DNA of 39,147 nucleotides from Bacteroidaceae bacterium (GTDB taxonomy: Bacteria > Bacteroidota > Bacteroidia > Bacteroidales > Bacteroidaceae), in NCBI GenBank assembly GCA_017470525.1, contig JAFUYM010000072.1:1-39147 (forward strand), given 5' to 3'. The notes under the pieces are model-generated. The model was not told where the DNA came from and did no database searches. It saw only the letters and a list, made by a program, of their open reading frames with translations. How positions within the stretch are numbered: the stretch's first letter is position 1; each line of letters begins with the position of its first letter. Both the position numbers and the translations under genes were made by a program. Of the stretch, positions 3,693 to 14,182 are shown piece by piece.

Positions 3693-3718
3693 TGTCTTTA
3701 TGTTGTGATGTTACATAG
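3693..3718. repeat. 26-bp direct repeat, left copy flanking the MNT/HEPN cassette
   Basis: This copy begins TGTCTTTATG and ends TTACATAG, and is identical over 26 bases to 4605-4630. It lies just beyond the 3' end of the HEPN gene. The repeat unit including one copy is 912 bp. This could be a recombination scar, an attachment-like site, or a duplicated regulatory sequence. Confidence 0.85.
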
Positions 3719-3750
3719 GCATGAGTATTAATGTGAATAAAGTTCCTTCA

Positions 3751-4604: not shown

Positions 4605-4630
4605 TGTCTTTATGTTGTGATGTTACATAG
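4605..4630. repeat. 26-bp direct repeat, right copy flanking the MNT/HEPN cassette
   Basis: Identical to 3693-3718. It lies upstream of the MNT/HEPN promoter and its terminator-insulated start. The next 290 bases, up to the end of menA at 4924, contain no supported gene, only a short direct repeat containing GGCTCGTCATCAC (around 4877-4913). Confidence 0.85.
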
Positions 4631-4923
4631 ACAAGTATGTTAAGTTCTATTCATTCAGGTTTGTTGGTGAAAATATCAACTGAAAAGACCGACACTTAAT
4701 GTCCACTCAAGTCTCTCACCCATGTCTTGCGGAAACGACAACGAATGTCTTCATGAAACGATAGCGAATATCTTGCTTGCTCTGTTGCCCGTCATCTCGA
4801 ACGACAGTATTCCGCATCATGCTCAAACACTCACCCGTATCTTCCGAGTTCCAACACTCGCCATCACTTTGCTCTGTGGCTCGTCATCACCTCTATCTCT
4901 GGCTCGTCATCACGGGGAATGCA

Positions 4924-6009
4924 TTACAGGAACGTGCTGACGGCAAGCAGGAGCCCGAAGAGGAAAATGTTGCGGGCAGTGGAGCCGAGGACTTGGTTGA
5001 GGGCTTTGCCATCAAGAGTCTTGAGTTGGCGGAAGGTGCGGAAATGAAGAATGAGGTAGATAAGCATGAGGGGATAGCGGATGGTGGAGAAAGGATTGAG
5101 GAACAGAGCGGTGAAGGCAAGGAGGGTAGAAATGATGCCGAGCCAAAGATAGAGGTCGAGGCAGATTTGTTCACCTTCTTTTTGCCCTTGCTGTTCGCCT
5201 AAAGCCCGTTGTTGCGCCTCTATGATGCGGACAACGATGGTGCGTTTTCCGCTCACCTTGTCTTGGTTACGGTCACGGTAATTGTTGACCATCAGGAGGT
5301 TATCAGTTGCCAAGCCCATTGCCAGCCCCGCAATGATAAGAGGGATGTTCCACCCCCCGCCTGTCATCACATAATAAGTGAAGACCACAGGGATGAGTCC
5401 AAAAAAGATGAGCACCAGGAGGTCGCCCCAACCGAGATAGGAGAGACGGGTTGTGTAGAGGAAACAGAATATGACGCAGAGGATGCCGACAAGAAGGAGT
5501 TCGAACTGCATGTGCTGAAGCATGATGGCTATGCCAATGATGCAGGAGAGAACGGTCATGATGCCAATGCCCCACTGCATGGCACGTGGAGTCACCCATC
5601 CTTGCGCACAGGCACGTTCAGGTCCGAGACGGTCTTCGCGGTCAGTGCCTTTCTTGAAGTCAAAATAGTCGTTGATGAAGTTAGCATCAATCTGCATGAA
5701 GACAGCAAAAAGGAGGCAGAGAAAGAAGGAAATGAGGAGTGAGGAGTGAGGAGTGAGGGCTGAAGGGGAAGAGTGGAAAGTTTTGACAAATGCCATCGCA
5801 CCCCCCACCAGCACGGGGGCAATGGCTCCTGTCAGTGTCTTAGGTCGGGCAGCAAGCACCCATGCGCGGATCCTCTCTCCTGCCCTCCCCCATAATGGGG
5901 AGGGAGAACCCTGCGGCGAGTTCCCTGTTGGCTTACAATCCGAATGGCTCTCCCCATTATGAGGGAGATGTCCGTCAAGACAGAGAGGGTCTTTGCTACT
6001 CGTCTTCAT
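4924..6009 (-). CDS. menA: 1,4-dihydroxy-2-naphthoate polyprenyltransferase (MenA), with an element-derived N-terminus
   Basis: MenA prenylates 1,4-dihydroxy-2-naphthoate in the inner membrane during menaquinone synthesis. The UbiA-family signatures are complete. AARPKTLTG occurs at residues 53-61. The first Asp-rich motif is NDYFDFKKGTD (113-123), with the following REDRLGP. The second motif is NNYRDRNQDKVSGKRT. Several hydrophobic helices follow. Starting at ATG 6009 gives 361 residues, about 45 more than usual at the N-terminus. The extra part comes from a palindromic repeat element (5872-5994) that directly abuts the family-conserved start of the protein. The ATG overlaps the end of the upstream MORN gene by 14 bases. 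A GTG just before LAARPKTL is the alternative start, but it would lose the usual Trp. A loop after the first helix is encoded by a 7-bp tandem repeat. Confidence 0.88.
   Translation of the reverse strand: MKTSSKDPLCLDGHLPHNGESHSDCKPTGNSPQGSPSPLWGRAGERIRAWVLAARPKTLTGAIAPVLVGGAMAFVKTFHSSPSALTPHSSLLISFFLCLLFAVFMQIDANFINDYFDFKKGTDREDRLGPERACAQGWVTPRAMQWGIGIMTVLSCIIGIAIMLQHMQFELLLVGILCVIFCFLYTTRLSYLGWGDLLVLIFFGLIPVVFTYYVMTGGGWNIPLIIAGLAMGLATDNLLMVNNYRDRNQDKVSGKRTIVVRIIEAQQRALGEQQGQKEGEQICLDLYLWLGIISTLLAFTALFLNPFSTIRYPLMLIYLILHFRTFRQLKTLDGKALNQVLGSTARNIFLFGLLLAVSTFL
5734..5754. repeat. 7-bp tandem repeat (GAGGAGT x3) inside menA
   Basis: Three perfect copies of GAGGAGT lie in the menA reading frame and encode the loop residues around TPHSSLL between the first two membrane segments. 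Because the unit is 7 bases, gain or loss of one copy would shift the frame. Confidence 0.7.
5872..5994. repeat. Palindromic dispersed element, copy A (at the MORN gene/menA junction)
   Basis: This is about 123 bp with terminal inverted repeats (CCTCTCTCC on the left, GAGAGGGTCTTTG on the right). It has two internal hairpin units built on CCCTCCCCCATAATGGGGAG and CTCCCCATTATGAGGGAG. Copy B at 13124-13248 has the same architecture and long identical blocks. Read in the menA frame it encodes HLPHNGE and SPSPLWGRAGERI, matching the peptide that copy B adds to the helicase. It starts immediately after the stop codon of the MORN gene. Confidence 0.85.
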
Positions 6010-6619
6010 CCTTCCAATACTGGATAGTGATGGTGTTGTTGGTGAAGAACATGGCACCAAACCCACGGCGGTCGTTGTTCTTATATCGCCCATAGTAGTA
6101 GTTACCATTATTATAATAGTACAGTCCCACTCCTTCGCGCTTGCCATTCACCGTTTCACCTACATATTTGTCACCGTTCTGATAAGTGAGCGACTCGAAG
6201 CGGTAAGTTTCCCCATAGTCGGCGGGGAGGCTGTACTTGTCGCCATCCTTCATGATGTAGAGCGGGTCGCCTGTGGTCAGGTCGTAACAGATGTAGTGGT
6301 CGTTAGAGCCAACCTTTGCCATCTGTGTGCCCATCTTGATGCCAAAAAGGAAATTGCCCAGACGGTACTGCCCATAGATGACTCCGTCGTTGTCGGTATA
6401 GTAGGCACCAAAGCCATAGACATTGCGCTCCTTGGTAATCTGCCCGAAATACTGCCCATAAGAAGACTTTGCCACACCACTGGCAAAATCCTTCACATAA
6501 TCGACAAAGGCTGCATCATATTGAGAGGGAATTTGCGGATATTTTTCGAGACGCGTGTACTGTGCACGCAACGAAAGAGTGAACGCCGCACAAAGAATAA
6601 AAATGAAAATCTTTCTCAT
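5996..6619 (-). CDS. Secreted MORN-repeat protein
   Basis: This 207-residue protein has a clear signal peptide (MRKIFIFILCAAFTLSLRAQ) and repeated beta-hairpin units of MORN type. Examples are YQNGDKYVGETVNGKREGVG and YYNNGNYYYGRYKNNDRRGFG near the C-terminus, with a more degenerate NVYGFGAYYTDNDGVIYGQY in the middle. MORN proteins in this phylum are mostly uncharacterised envelope or periplasmic proteins. The gene is divergent from the TonB-receptor-like gene at 6773 and shares its intergenic region. Its stop codon touches palindromic element A, and menA follows on the same strand with a 14-base overlap, so the two are probably co-transcribed. Confidence 0.75.
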   Translation of the reverse strand: MRKIFIFILCAAFTLSLRAQYTRLEKYPQIPSQYDAAFVDYVKDFASGVAKSSYGQYFGQITKERNVYGFGAYYTDNDGVIYGQYRLGNFLFGIKMGTQMAKVGSNDHYICYDLTTGDPLYIMKDGDKYSLPADYGETYRFESLTYQNGDKYVGETVNGKREGVGLYYYNNGNYYYGRYKNNDRRGFGAMFFTNNTITIQYWKDEDE

Positions 6620-10419: not shown

Positions 10420-11232
10420 TTAGAATCCACAGATGAGCAGCGTCTGCAAGTCGTAGGGGATAAAATGGTTGCCCATCGTCAGGCGGTCCTTGAAGTCCTC
10501 GCTGCGGTCAATCACCGACACGTGCTGCAAGAAATACTTGATTTTCTCCGCCAGTTCCGTCATGCGCTGCTCGATGTCGCCCACCACAAAGAGAGCATCA
10601 TCCACCTGGTCAAACCCCAACTGCTGCCATACATTGAGCGTGTAGTACTGGATGTCAGCCACACTGGTCGCCTCAAACGTGTTGACAAACAGCATCCTGC
10701 CCTGCTCAAACGCGTAGAGCGTCATTTCCTTCTCGTGCAGATAAACAAACATCTTCTTGCCGGAACCAATCAGACTCTTCTCGCCGAAAAACTCAATCAG
10801 CGTACTTGCCGAGGCATAGAACCTTGCCCGTGGGAAGTCGTCGAGCAACAGTTGGCGGATGTTGCGGTCCAGCCCGAAAACGATGGCTATGCCCGAACGC
10901 CTCAGCACATTGTAGGTCACATGCTGCGAAGTGTCCTTCGGGAAGGTGAACTGATACACCGCCTGAATGTCCTCCTTCTGAAACGCCGCCACGGGCACCG
11001 TCGTGAAATGCGGAGTGGTGATGAGCACGTTCACACGCTGATACGCCTGCTTCAGCATCGGCTCATTCATCAGGGCAGCCTTCAGGTTGGCTGCCAATGA
11101 GATGGTGTGGTTCACATCCCACACCTTATACTCAAACGGTTCCTCCTGCCCTGGAGCATACGTGCAAAAAGAAAGTCCATTCGAGCAGACCCGAATGGAC
11201 AAACTTTTATTAGTCATTTGATTTTCTGCCAT
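10420..11232 (-). CDS. DUF3822 family protein
   Basis: This 270-residue protein (ATG 11232; MAENQMTNKSLSIRV) resembles the DUF3822 family of Bacteroidetes, which has an actin/ribonuclease-H-like look with alternating beta-strands (LSIRVCSNGLSFCTY, KKMFVYLHEKEMTLYAF). The second ATG at 11217 is a possible alternative start. The function is unknown. Genes of this family sit immediately upstream of rsmD in many Bacteroidetes, as here. The start codon overlaps the last unit of a 7-bp tandem repeat. Confidence 0.75.
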   Translation of the reverse strand: MAENQMTNKSLSIRVCSNGLSFCTYAPGQEEPFEYKVWDVNHTISLAANLKAALMNEPMLKQAYQRVNVLITTPHFTTVPVAAFQKEDIQAVYQFTFPKDTSQHVTYNVLRRSGIAIVFGLDRNIRQLLLDDFPRARFYASASTLIEFFGEKSLIGSGKKMFVYLHEKEMTLYAFEQGRMLFVNTFEATSVADIQYYTLNVWQQLGFDQVDDALFVVGDIEQRMTELAEKIKYFLQHVSVIDRSEDFKDRLTMGNHFIPYDLQTLLICGF

Positions 11233-11273
11233 CAACTGTCAACTGTCAATTATCAACTGTCAATTGTCAACTG
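11232..11273. repeat. 7-bp tandem repeat (TCAACTG-type, six units)
   Basis: Six consecutive 7-mers of the form TCAACTG, TCAATTG or TCAATTA lie between the stop of the upstream membrane-protein gene and the start of the DUF3822 gene. On the minus strand the last unit reads CAGTTGA and runs into the ATG. It sits where the ribosome binds, so copy number could affect translation of the DUF3822 gene. Confidence 0.75.
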
Positions 11274-11275
11274 CC

Positions 11276-12191: not shown

Positions 12192-13733
12192 ATGATAAAA
12201 GACTACCTAAAAGACCTCATTTTGCATCATTTCGGGCATATTCCGACCAATGACCAGGCAAAAGTCATCAATTCGTTGTGCGACTTCATCCTCTCGCCCG
12301 ACGCCGATGAACTTTTCATCCTCCGAGGCTTTGCCGGAACCGGAAAGACATCCCTCGTCAGTGCCCTCGTCAAGACGATGGAGCAACTGGAGCGTGAGTG
12401 CGTGCTCATGGCACCCACGGGACGAGCCGCCAAGGTGCTCTCCCTCTATGCCGACCACCCCGCCTTCACCATCCACAAGCGTATCTACCGCCAGAAGTCC
12501 ATCGACAAGGACAGCATCTTCACCCTCAACTACAACATGCGCACCGACCTCCTCTTCATCTGCGACGAGGCATCGATGATAGCCAACGACGAGTACCTGT
12601 CGGGCAGCCTCTACGGTACCGGCCGCCTGCTCGACGACATGGTACACTTCGTCTATGGAGGCAGGGGGTGCCGACTCATCATCCTCGGCGACACCGCCCA
12701 GTTGCCACCCGTGGGCGACGACGAAAGCCCTGCCCTCAGCGACGACTACATGAACGGCTACGGGCTCCACGTCGTCAGCCACACCCTCACCGAAGTGGTC
12801 AGGCAAGCCGAGTCGTCAGGCATCCTGTGGAACGCCACACACCTGCGGCAACTCATGGACACCGAAGACATCTTCTCCCTGCCCCGCATCCGCTTCCGCG
12901 GCTTTCCCGACGTGCGTATCATCCCCGGCAACGAACTCATCGAAGCCCTCGAAGAGTGCTACCACCGCGACGGCGAGGACGAGACCATCGTCGTAACCCG
13001 CAGCAACAAACGCGCCAACATCTACAACAACGGCATCCGTGCCCAAATCCTCTGGCGAGAAGAGCCCCTCGAAAGTGGCGACATGCTCATGGTGGCAAAG
13101 AACAACTATTATTGGGTAGAGAAGACCCTCTCCCCGACCCTCCCCCATAATGGGGAGGGAGACCATGCGGGGTCTTTGTCGTCAGAAAACAAGCCGAATG
13201 GCTCCCCCCTCCCCATTACGGGGGAGGGGACGGGGGAGAGGGTCTTTTCCTTCATCGCCAACGGCGACACCGCCATCGTCCGCCGCATCCGCAACGAACG
13301 CCAGTTCTACGGATTCACCTTCGCCGATGCCACCCTGGAGTTTCCCGACTACGACGACTTCACCATGGAACTCACCCTCCTCACCGACACCCTCCAAGCC
13401 GAAGCCCCCGCCCTCACCCGCGAGCAGCAGGACACATTATTTAATAATATAATGGAGGACTACAACGGCGACCCCACCCTACGCTCCAAGCAAGACCGCC
13501 TCAAAGCCCTCCGTCAAGACCCCTACTACAACGCCCTCCAAGTCAAGTACGCCTACGCCGTCACCTGCCACAAAGCCCAAGGCGGCCAATGGACCAACGT
13601 CTTCATCGACCAAGGCTACATGACCGACGACATGCTCGGCCCCGACTACTTCCGCTGGCTCTACACCGCCATCACCCGTGCCACCCAACGGGTGTTCTTC
13701 GTCAACTGGAAAGAAGAACAAACCGAACTGTAG
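12192..13733 (+). CDS. RecD-like superfamily 1 DNA helicase with an in-frame palindromic element
   Basis: This 513-residue AAA/UvrD-type helicase has Walker A GFAGTGKTS (46-54), APTGRAAKVL, the Walker B-like motif LLFICDEASMI, and LGDTAQLPPVG. The C-terminal UvrD_C_2 motifs are AVTCHKAQGGQW and YTAITRATQRVFFVNW. The protein resembles short RecD2-like helicases of Bacteroidetes. Between NNYYWVEK and FIANGDTAIV (about residues 311-353) it carries a roughly 42-residue stretch rich in Pro and Gly, encoded by palindromic element B. The stretch interrupts an otherwise continuous conserved core but keeps the frame. All helicase motifs remain intact, so the enzyme is probably functional. The gene is divergent from the 11276-12025 gene. 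Confidence 0.85.
   Translation: MIKDYLKDLILHHFGHIPTNDQAKVINSLCDFILSPDADELFILRGFAGTGKTSLVSALVKTMEQLERECVLMAPTGRAAKVLSLYADHPAFTIHKRIYRQKSIDKDSIFTLNYNMRTDLLFICDEASMIANDEYLSGSLYGTGRLLDDMVHFVYGGRGCRLIILGDTAQLPPVGDDESPALSDDYMNGYGLHVVSHTLTEVVRQAESSGILWNATHLRQLMDTEDIFSLPRIRFRGFPDVRIIPGNELIEALEECYHRDGEDETIVVTRSNKRANIYNNGIRAQILWREEPLESGDMLMVAKNNYYWVEKTLSPTLPHNGEGDHAGSLSSENKPNGSPLPITGEGTGERVFSFIANGDTAIVRRIRNERQFYGFTFADATLEFPDYDDFTMELTLLTDTLQAEAPALTREQQDTLFNNIMEDYNGDPTLRSKQDRLKALRQDPYYNALQVKYAYAVTCHKAQGGQWTNVFIDQGYMTDDMLGPDYFRWLYTAITRATQRVFFVNWKEEQTEL
13124..13248. repeat. Palindromic dispersed element, copy B (inside the helicase gene)
   Basis: This is about 125 bp with terminal inverted repeats AAGACCCTCTCCCC and GGGGGAGAGGGTCTT (the first base of the left arm is at 13123). 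Two internal hairpins are built on CCCTCCCCCATAATGGGGAG and CTCCCCATTACGGGGGAG. It is homologous to copy A at 5872-5994. In the helicase frame it encodes LSPTLPHNGEG and NKPNGSPLPITGEGTGERV. Confidence 0.9.
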
Positions 13734-13809: not shown

Positions 13810-13837
13810 TTTTCCGAGAGGACAATGCACCTTCGGT

Positions 13838-14092
13838 GCGTCGGATGGAAACGAATCGCATTAGTCCCGTCGGGGTGTCGGATGGAAACGCAAGGCATAA
13901 GTCCCGAAGGGACAGCAGAATACAGGCAGGCGGTGAAGCGAAGCGGAACCCCTGCTACACATGACATCATTAACAACAACCCTGAAGGGGTGACGGACTT
14001 TTCCATTCTTGGATGAATCCATCACCCCTTCGGGGTTCATATTGGGGGTGTTCACTTTACAGGGGTTCCGCTACGCTCCACCGCCTGCCTGT
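13838..14092. repeat. Composite intergenic repeat: 37-bp tandem pair plus nested inverted repeats
   Basis: Two 37-base units (13838-13874 and 13875-13911) share TCGGATGGAAACG and AGTCCCG. Next, a 33-base inverted repeat (13922-13954 with 14060-14092, two mismatches) encloses a 16-base inverted repeat (13978-13993 with 14022-14037, one mismatch; AGGGGTGA/TCACCCCT). The region 13734-14182 holds no gene I can support. The nested hairpins could act as a bidirectional terminator between the convergent helicase and HU genes, or be a mobile non-coding repeat. Confidence 0.8.
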
Positions 14093-14182
14093 GCTCTTTC
14101 GCCCCGTCGGGGCTTTTCTAAAACAATCCGCAATTCGTTGTTCCTAAACAATTCGTTGTTTCTAAAACAACCCGTCCGCCGT

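Follow-up and report, generated by a model that had tools for sequence, protein, structure and literature searches.

The palindromic element carried in frame by a RecD/Pif1-like helicase gene of the window (the whole stretch of 39,147 nucleotides analyzed here, from a Bacteroidaceae bacterium) occupies the place of a native loop that is present in the helicase of the sister species, and in other genomes the same loop is filled by palindromic repeats of other families. On the basis of sequence comparison, we consider it probable (roughly 80%) that the element is a non-autonomous palindrome resembling the Rickettsia palindromic elements (RPE), that it has been exchanged for the native loop and kept as a tolerated linker, and that the helicase loop is a hotspot. 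An earlier note on this DNA had drawn attention to the element; its observation is confirmed and its interpretation is partly supported, and the filling of the same loop by other palindromic families in other genomes is absent from its account. The genome to which the window belongs, designated G000, is a draft assembly of 83 contigs that is 83% complete.

The 125-bp element with 14-bp terminal inverted repeats that the earlier note had placed in the helicase was found there, with its boundaries shifted two bases to the left, because the positions of the terminal inverted repeats, which are perfect over 14 bp, give 13122-13246 as the best limits (Table 1). Folded as single-stranded DNA, the segment 13122-13248 has an energy of -47.8 kcal/mol as compared with -24.4 ± 2.9 kcal/mol for shuffled sequences (n = 200; z = -8.2), none of which folded as well. 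The encoded peptide reads TLSPTLPHNGEGDHAG..GERV. A search of the window against Rfam at the gathering threshold gave no matches. The helicase product has RecD (3e1s) and Dda (3upu) among its sequence relatives in the PDB. The element (residues 311-352) lies between YWVE and the conserved FIANGD, and the Pfam domains AAA_30 (37-211) and UvrD_C_2 (453-504) are found on either side of it. The intergenic DNA 3' of the helicase gene contains further repeats (13830-14115), with CCCCTTCGGGG hairpins; a direct repeat pair (13830-13866/13867-13903) and an inverted repeat (13899-13954/14060-14115; 56 nt, 82%) are located there.

Table 1. Positions of the element, its parts and the genes that carry family copies in the window
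Feature	Position	Strand	Remarks
RecD/Pif1-like superfamily 1 helicase gene, 513 aa, with the element in frame	12192..13733	+	Pfam AAA_30, AAA_19, PIF1, UvrD_C_2
Palindromic element, read KTLSPTLPHNGEGDHAGSLSSENKPNGSPLPITGEGTGERVF	13122..13246	+	Codons 311-352 of the helicase; absent from sister species G020
Left 14-bp terminal inverted repeat, AAGACCCTCTCCCC	13122..13135	+	Read directly
Left inner hairpin, CCCTCCCC-N6-GGGGAGGG	13138..13159	.	Within inverted repeat I4
Right inner hairpin, CCCTCCCC-N6-GGGGAGGG	13207..13228	.	Within inverted repeat I4
Right 14-bp terminal inverted repeat (GGGGAGAGGGTCTT on the + strand)	13233..13246	-	Read directly
menA-like UbiA prenyltransferase gene with the second copy	4924..6147	-	Pfam UbiA PF01040; menA is the name used in the earlier note
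Second family copy, in frame near the menA N terminus	5869..5994	-	Orientation opposite relative to its gene

As expected of the mobile element supposed in the earlier note, the sequence recurs in the genome and in its relatives. The element gave 77 BLAST matches in G000 at E<=1, and a second BLAST on the fetched stretches resolved 34 family loci at E<=0.01. Of 45 genomes in the genus, 27 (counting G000) contain matches at E<=1e-6, with 1 to 45 in each among the matches listed. The element consists of two inverted hairpin units with ends AGACCCTCTC..GAGAGGGTCT and a spacer of 40-50 nt; in typical copies, judged by eye, one end reads GACCCTCTCCCC..CCCTCCCC-N6-GGGGAGGG and the other GACCCTCTCTGTCC..GGACATCTCCCC-N6-GGGGAGA, with the spacer between them. 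The earlier note had aligned the peptide of the helicase copy with that of the menA copy. The two peptides are indeed alike, a resemblance that stems from a shared codon phase across the hairpin loops, but the two copies do not share one orientation relative to their genes. The element peptide of menA was not seen in the nine regions of relatives, of 11 taken, in which menA was found.

The two-unit architecture raises the possibility, which we do not favor, that the element is a REPIN mobilized by a RAYT encoded in the genome. Like REPIN/RAYT systems, the family has two inverted hairpin units and a spacer in a genus where RAYT-like genes are present: G000 contains one Y1_Tnp gene of RAYT type, above the Pfam cut-off, and RAYT-like matches occur in 37 of the 45 genomes. 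Across the 45 genomes the numbers of element and RAYT-like matches are weakly and positively correlated (rho 0.35, p 0.017). In G000 and G003, a close RAYT and numerous elements occur together. The family differs from REPIN/RAYT systems in that no RAYT is directly flanked by the element and the element does not clearly track with a RAYT. G004 has a RAYT with 84% identity and no element matches, whereas the best RAYT matches in the element-rich genomes G013, G014, G035 and G037 are just 34-49% identical. Genomes that contain a close relative of the G000 RAYT, seven when G000 itself is counted, do not hold more of the element than the others (p 0.47), and the element is absent from a 10-kb stretch around the RAYT of G000, itself an assembly of 83% completeness. 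In 19 RAYT regions (18 picked and that of G000), none has an element directly beside the gene or nearer than 708 bp; in six, an element lies in frame within the upstream gene at a distance of 708-773 bp, and in one of these six the opposite side also has an element, at 1263 bp. On examination of its occurrence, number, identity and flanking DNA, a RAYT is not convincing as a proven parent. The autonomous parent with the same terminal repeats that the earlier note suggested looking for was not apparent by eye among the BLAST matches in G000, and the sequences compared revealed no transposition, donor copy or target duplication.

The comparison that bears most directly on the origin of the helicase copy is that with the nearest helicase, L033 of the sister species G020, whose 462 aligned columns outside the loop show 98% identity to the window. 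(The tree that places the window beside L033 was made by a quick method from 96 rows with the loop columns dropped and was used only for this purpose.) At the element site, L033 has a loop of ~25 residues with an unrelated sequence, which the window lacks. The earlier note had the element adding about 42 residues; this many are encoded by it, but the net gain is 17 because of the missing loop. Of the 45 genomes, 32 have a helicase loop tied to them (the window, L033-L061, L069 and L085; L069 by ORF length alone). Among these loops, 26 are native and 84 nt long, four are palindromes (window, L035, L069 and L085) and two have other lengths, and none contains the native loop and an element together. 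The palindromic loops are not all independent because L069 and L085 are sisters. Short loops in L075-L078, which to judge from ORF length probably belong to the same genus, show that the long native loop is not universal, so that we only infer its prior presence in L035, L069 and L085.

Two other proteins show the same relation. In UvrA (30 loci read; matches in 45 of 45 genomes), a 7-residue tip is replaced by the family of the window in G000. In LeuRS (30 loci read), a native loop is replaced by family members in G000, G037 and G007. Stops were reported in the matches of G003 and G023 (UvrA) and G007 (LeuRS); the ORFs that were read run through the loops. By eye and at the peptide level, the sequence that replaces the UvrA tip resembles the L085 type in G003 and looks like an AT-rich repeat in G016 and G023. 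An AT-rich CAACTGTCAATTATCAACTGTCAATTG repeat is present in the window at 11232-11275; judged from peptides only, it may be of the type seen in the UvrA loops of the last two genomes (L230 and L231). In the helicase, UvrA and LeuRS, the element is present where the native loop kept by close relatives is missing, so that the loop appears to have been exchanged for the element. The earlier note spoke of the insertion of a mobile element; its dispersal and its compatibility with coding sequence stand, but the feature is, on the sequences compared, better called a replacement than a plain insertion.

The same sites argue against a classic MITE, that is, an element derived by deletion from an IS that shares its terminal repeats, and inserted through a DDE transposase. 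The 14-bp terminal inverted repeats, the size of ~125 bp and the dispersal would suit such an element, but comparison of the three genes with G020 by eye reveals no target site duplication and, instead, native loop sequence is missing. In addition, no longer element with the same ends is apparent by eye among the G000 BLAST matches, and we regard this origin as unlikely. An ancestral hypervariable, low-complexity loop that was never mobile is highly improbable. Loop length does vary naturally across the helicase family, with short forms included, but the loop DNA recurs in G000, as at the UvrA locus (90% over 103 nt), its folding is far stronger than that of shuffled sequence, and the element peptide occurs in none of the 109 other helicase rows. 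The ancestral loop, which the earlier note had set against its own reading, was rejected on the sister comparison, in which the nearest relative has a different and unrelated loop.

The helicase loop is highly variable in length and is filled by other repeats in other genomes. In 111 aligned helicase rows, in which the window appears twice and some records appear twice, the SD of loop length is 10.5 at the element site and 2.5 at the next site. From this variability alone, we infer that the loop is probably exposed. Four loops chosen for their palindromic look (L035, L085, L089 and L099) were tested, and all four are dispersed repeats of their own genomes. (i) The loop DNA of L035 has 21 matches in its own genome and four in G000. 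(ii) That of L085 has 11 in its own genome, 13 in G023, three in G026, six in G105 and none in G000. (iii) That of L089 has 24 in its own genome, 21 each in G103 and G104, five in G107, three in G105, one in G017 and none in G000. (iv) That of L099 has 48 in its own genome, 58 weaker ones in G104, 17 in G106, four in G108, three in G109 and one in G000. Loci are fewer than these counts because a palindrome is matched on both strands and the loop also matches itself. A control piece of 80 nt from outside the helicase loop gave a single match in each of four genomes. The tested loops represent families other than that of the window because their few G000 matches fall outside the window-family loci; the mutual differences among the four are less clear than their difference from the family of the window.

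Fold z-scores below -3 were obtained for 10 of 79 loops as compared with 2 of 79 controls (88 distinct loops, nine of which were too short). Folding was not used to count palindromic loops because it missed the confirmed repeats L085 and L099. When hand-made repeat-type labels were placed on the tree, 12 changes were required with 'none' as a state. The seven labeled groups alone need eight changes as compared with a mean of 8.4 for shuffled labels, which were as low in 106 of 200 trials, so that clustering is no better than shuffled and the tree yields no count of events. The suggestion of the earlier note that the element evolves as a peptide linker agrees with some linkers that look, by eye, like decayed elements, namely the loop of L093, which lies beside L089, and the linker of L306 described below.

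Within G000, 24 of the 34 loci are in frame inside genes. Twenty-two were called from agreement of the codon-usage frame in both 210-nt flanks, with reading through the element, and menA and a gene for a 187-residue protein were added by homology. Among these 22, a single locus shows a stop within a flank, at the point where its ORF begins; the C17 locus has the same frame score but contains stops and was left out. The remainder comprise two loci cut by contig ends and eight without demonstrated in-frame reading. A Pfam match was obtained for 17 of 20 submitted host proteins (E<=0.001), 15 of the 20 being above the curated cut-off; the 20 include L154, a contig-end copy. The hosts include GH43, a glycosyltransferase, type IA topoisomerase, CbiD/CbiJ, LeuRS, AroE, a MutS2-like protein, UvrA, HlyD and a Mur ligase-alanine racemase fusion. 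The retention of frame in these 24 copies, together with the occurrence of the same element-bearing 187-residue gene in five genomes, makes it most improbable that repeats were wrongly joined into genes during assembly, even though the draft is in 83 contigs and two copies lie at contig ends.

Twelve of the 13 two-hairpin copies inside G000 genes share one orientation and frame (TLSP..NGEG), and the reversed menA copy is the exception. The bias has p = 14/8192 = 0.0017 under a generous null of two open frames and independence. These 13 copies have 2 to 5 stop-free frames each; L157 and L144 were trimmed short for this count, in which the frame pattern was recovered in 11 of the 12. In one copy examined, no other frame is as hydrophilic as the one in use (KD -1.32, charge -3), which contains neither Cys nor Met. 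The simplest reading of the preference is selection for a harmless linker peptide. Six copies without demonstrated gene context are 140-165 nt long with 0 to 4 open frames, as compared with 120-125 nt for 10 of the 13 in-gene copies. The earlier note held the element to be compatible with coding sequence in one specific frame; this describes most in-gene copies, but the preference is not strict because menA and a gene of six other genomes begin the family in other frames, the latter as RPSPQPSP or similar. This gene, which we presume from its look to be comEA-like (L296 1239-2222; orthologues L297-L300 and L302), carries the family in a linker that follows a probable membrane segment and lies just upstream of a RAYT-like gene, being the upstream gene of the six RAYT regions with an element 708-773 bp away. 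Four other comEA-like genes (L301 and L304-L306) have different linkers, and that of L306 resembles a decayed element.

These features can be accommodated if the helicase copy is one of a genome-dispersed, apparently non-autonomous palindrome that works like the coding palindromes of Rickettsia. Copies that are out of frame or that disrupt a fold would be lost, and those in variable loops with a stop-free, hydrophilic frame would survive as linkers. The exchange of the loop could occur in one event or through arrival of the element followed by deletion of the loop. The helicase loop would be an acceptance hotspot that is taken by other palindromic families in other genomes, as found for the four tested. 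Spread is probably by a single-strand process acting in trans, either a Y1 transposase acting on the hairpins or illegitimate recombination of hairpin single strands. More tentatively, and with less than even odds in our estimate, hairpin single strands may replace loops of housekeeping proteins by two-sided illegitimate recombination, with palindrome families competing for the same few loops and linkers of conserved proteins being routinely exchanged between mobile sequences across this bacterial family.

Protein-coding palindromes are best known from Rickettsia, where their entry into genes is hard to see. Here, sister species that are 98% identical in the helicase differ by the element, which allows a comparison of helicases that have it and lack it and reveals the loop exchange. 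The recurrence of different families in the helicase loop, and apparently also in UvrA, can serve as a natural experiment that bears on where in a protein new sequence is tolerated and on how mobile DNA turns into protein. Because different palindromes fill the same helicase loop elsewhere, repeats that spread through genomes appear to double as interchangeable protein linkers.

RPE (Ogata et al. 2000, as described in PMC2229807) are 105-146 bp long with terminal inverted repeats and a long stem-loop, and they are reported in that description from 19 reading frames, in frame in conserved genes. The element of the window is likewise 125 bp long, palindromic, dispersed over 34 loci and in frame in otherwise intact conserved genes in 24 of them. 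Likened on the published description, it differs from RPE in bacterial group, in the missing native loop and in the different families found in one loop. Intragenic GTAG/CGTC REPs are described in PMC3733652 as hairpin repeats within genes, many for DNA synthesis and repair (uvrA, uvrB, recB and dnaE2); two Xanthomonas recB genes have different REPs at about one site, and CGTC repeats are reported from Bacteroidetes among other phyla. The present family shares with these REPs, as described there, hairpin repeats within genes and uvrA as a host, and differs in that in-gene copies are the majority (24 of 34). In five copies examined, GTAG is absent from both strands; CGTC is found in two of the five, and the right unit of the helicase copy is the one place where it adjoins a hairpin, which sets the family apart from GTAG/CGTC REPs. 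The coding MITEs of enterobacteria and Coxiella, as outlined in PMC2229807, are small elements with inverted repeats whose open frames are fused to genes. The element resembles that outline in its size, inverted repeats and in-gene open frame and differs from it in that, by eye, neither a parent IS among the G000 matches nor a target duplication at the three sites compared was found. Coding palindromes and their recurrence at one site are therefore not wholly new, in view of RPE and the Xanthomonas recB REPs as described in these sources. A literature search, of a kind that may miss published work, found no report of coding palindromes in Bacteroidales. What is added here is their extent in this group, the absence of the native loop at element sites and the occupation of one loop by several families.

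The element-bearing gene for the 187-residue protein (L144 and L288-L291) is nearly identical in five species, which suggests common descent of the insertion or transfer of the gene between species; in the codon comparison, differences within the element were too few for a test of selection. At L151, L295 and L294, the element occurs twice in frame within one gene. The first is PcRGLX-like by Pfam, the second likewise by resemblance, and the third is presumably glycosidase-like. One gene (L292 and L293), which we take to encode an M20-type peptidase, seems to hold two different palindromes in frame. Elsewhere in the window, a direct repeat of 39 nt with 87% identity is present at 3693-3731 and 4605-4643, with a start-to-start distance of 912 bp.
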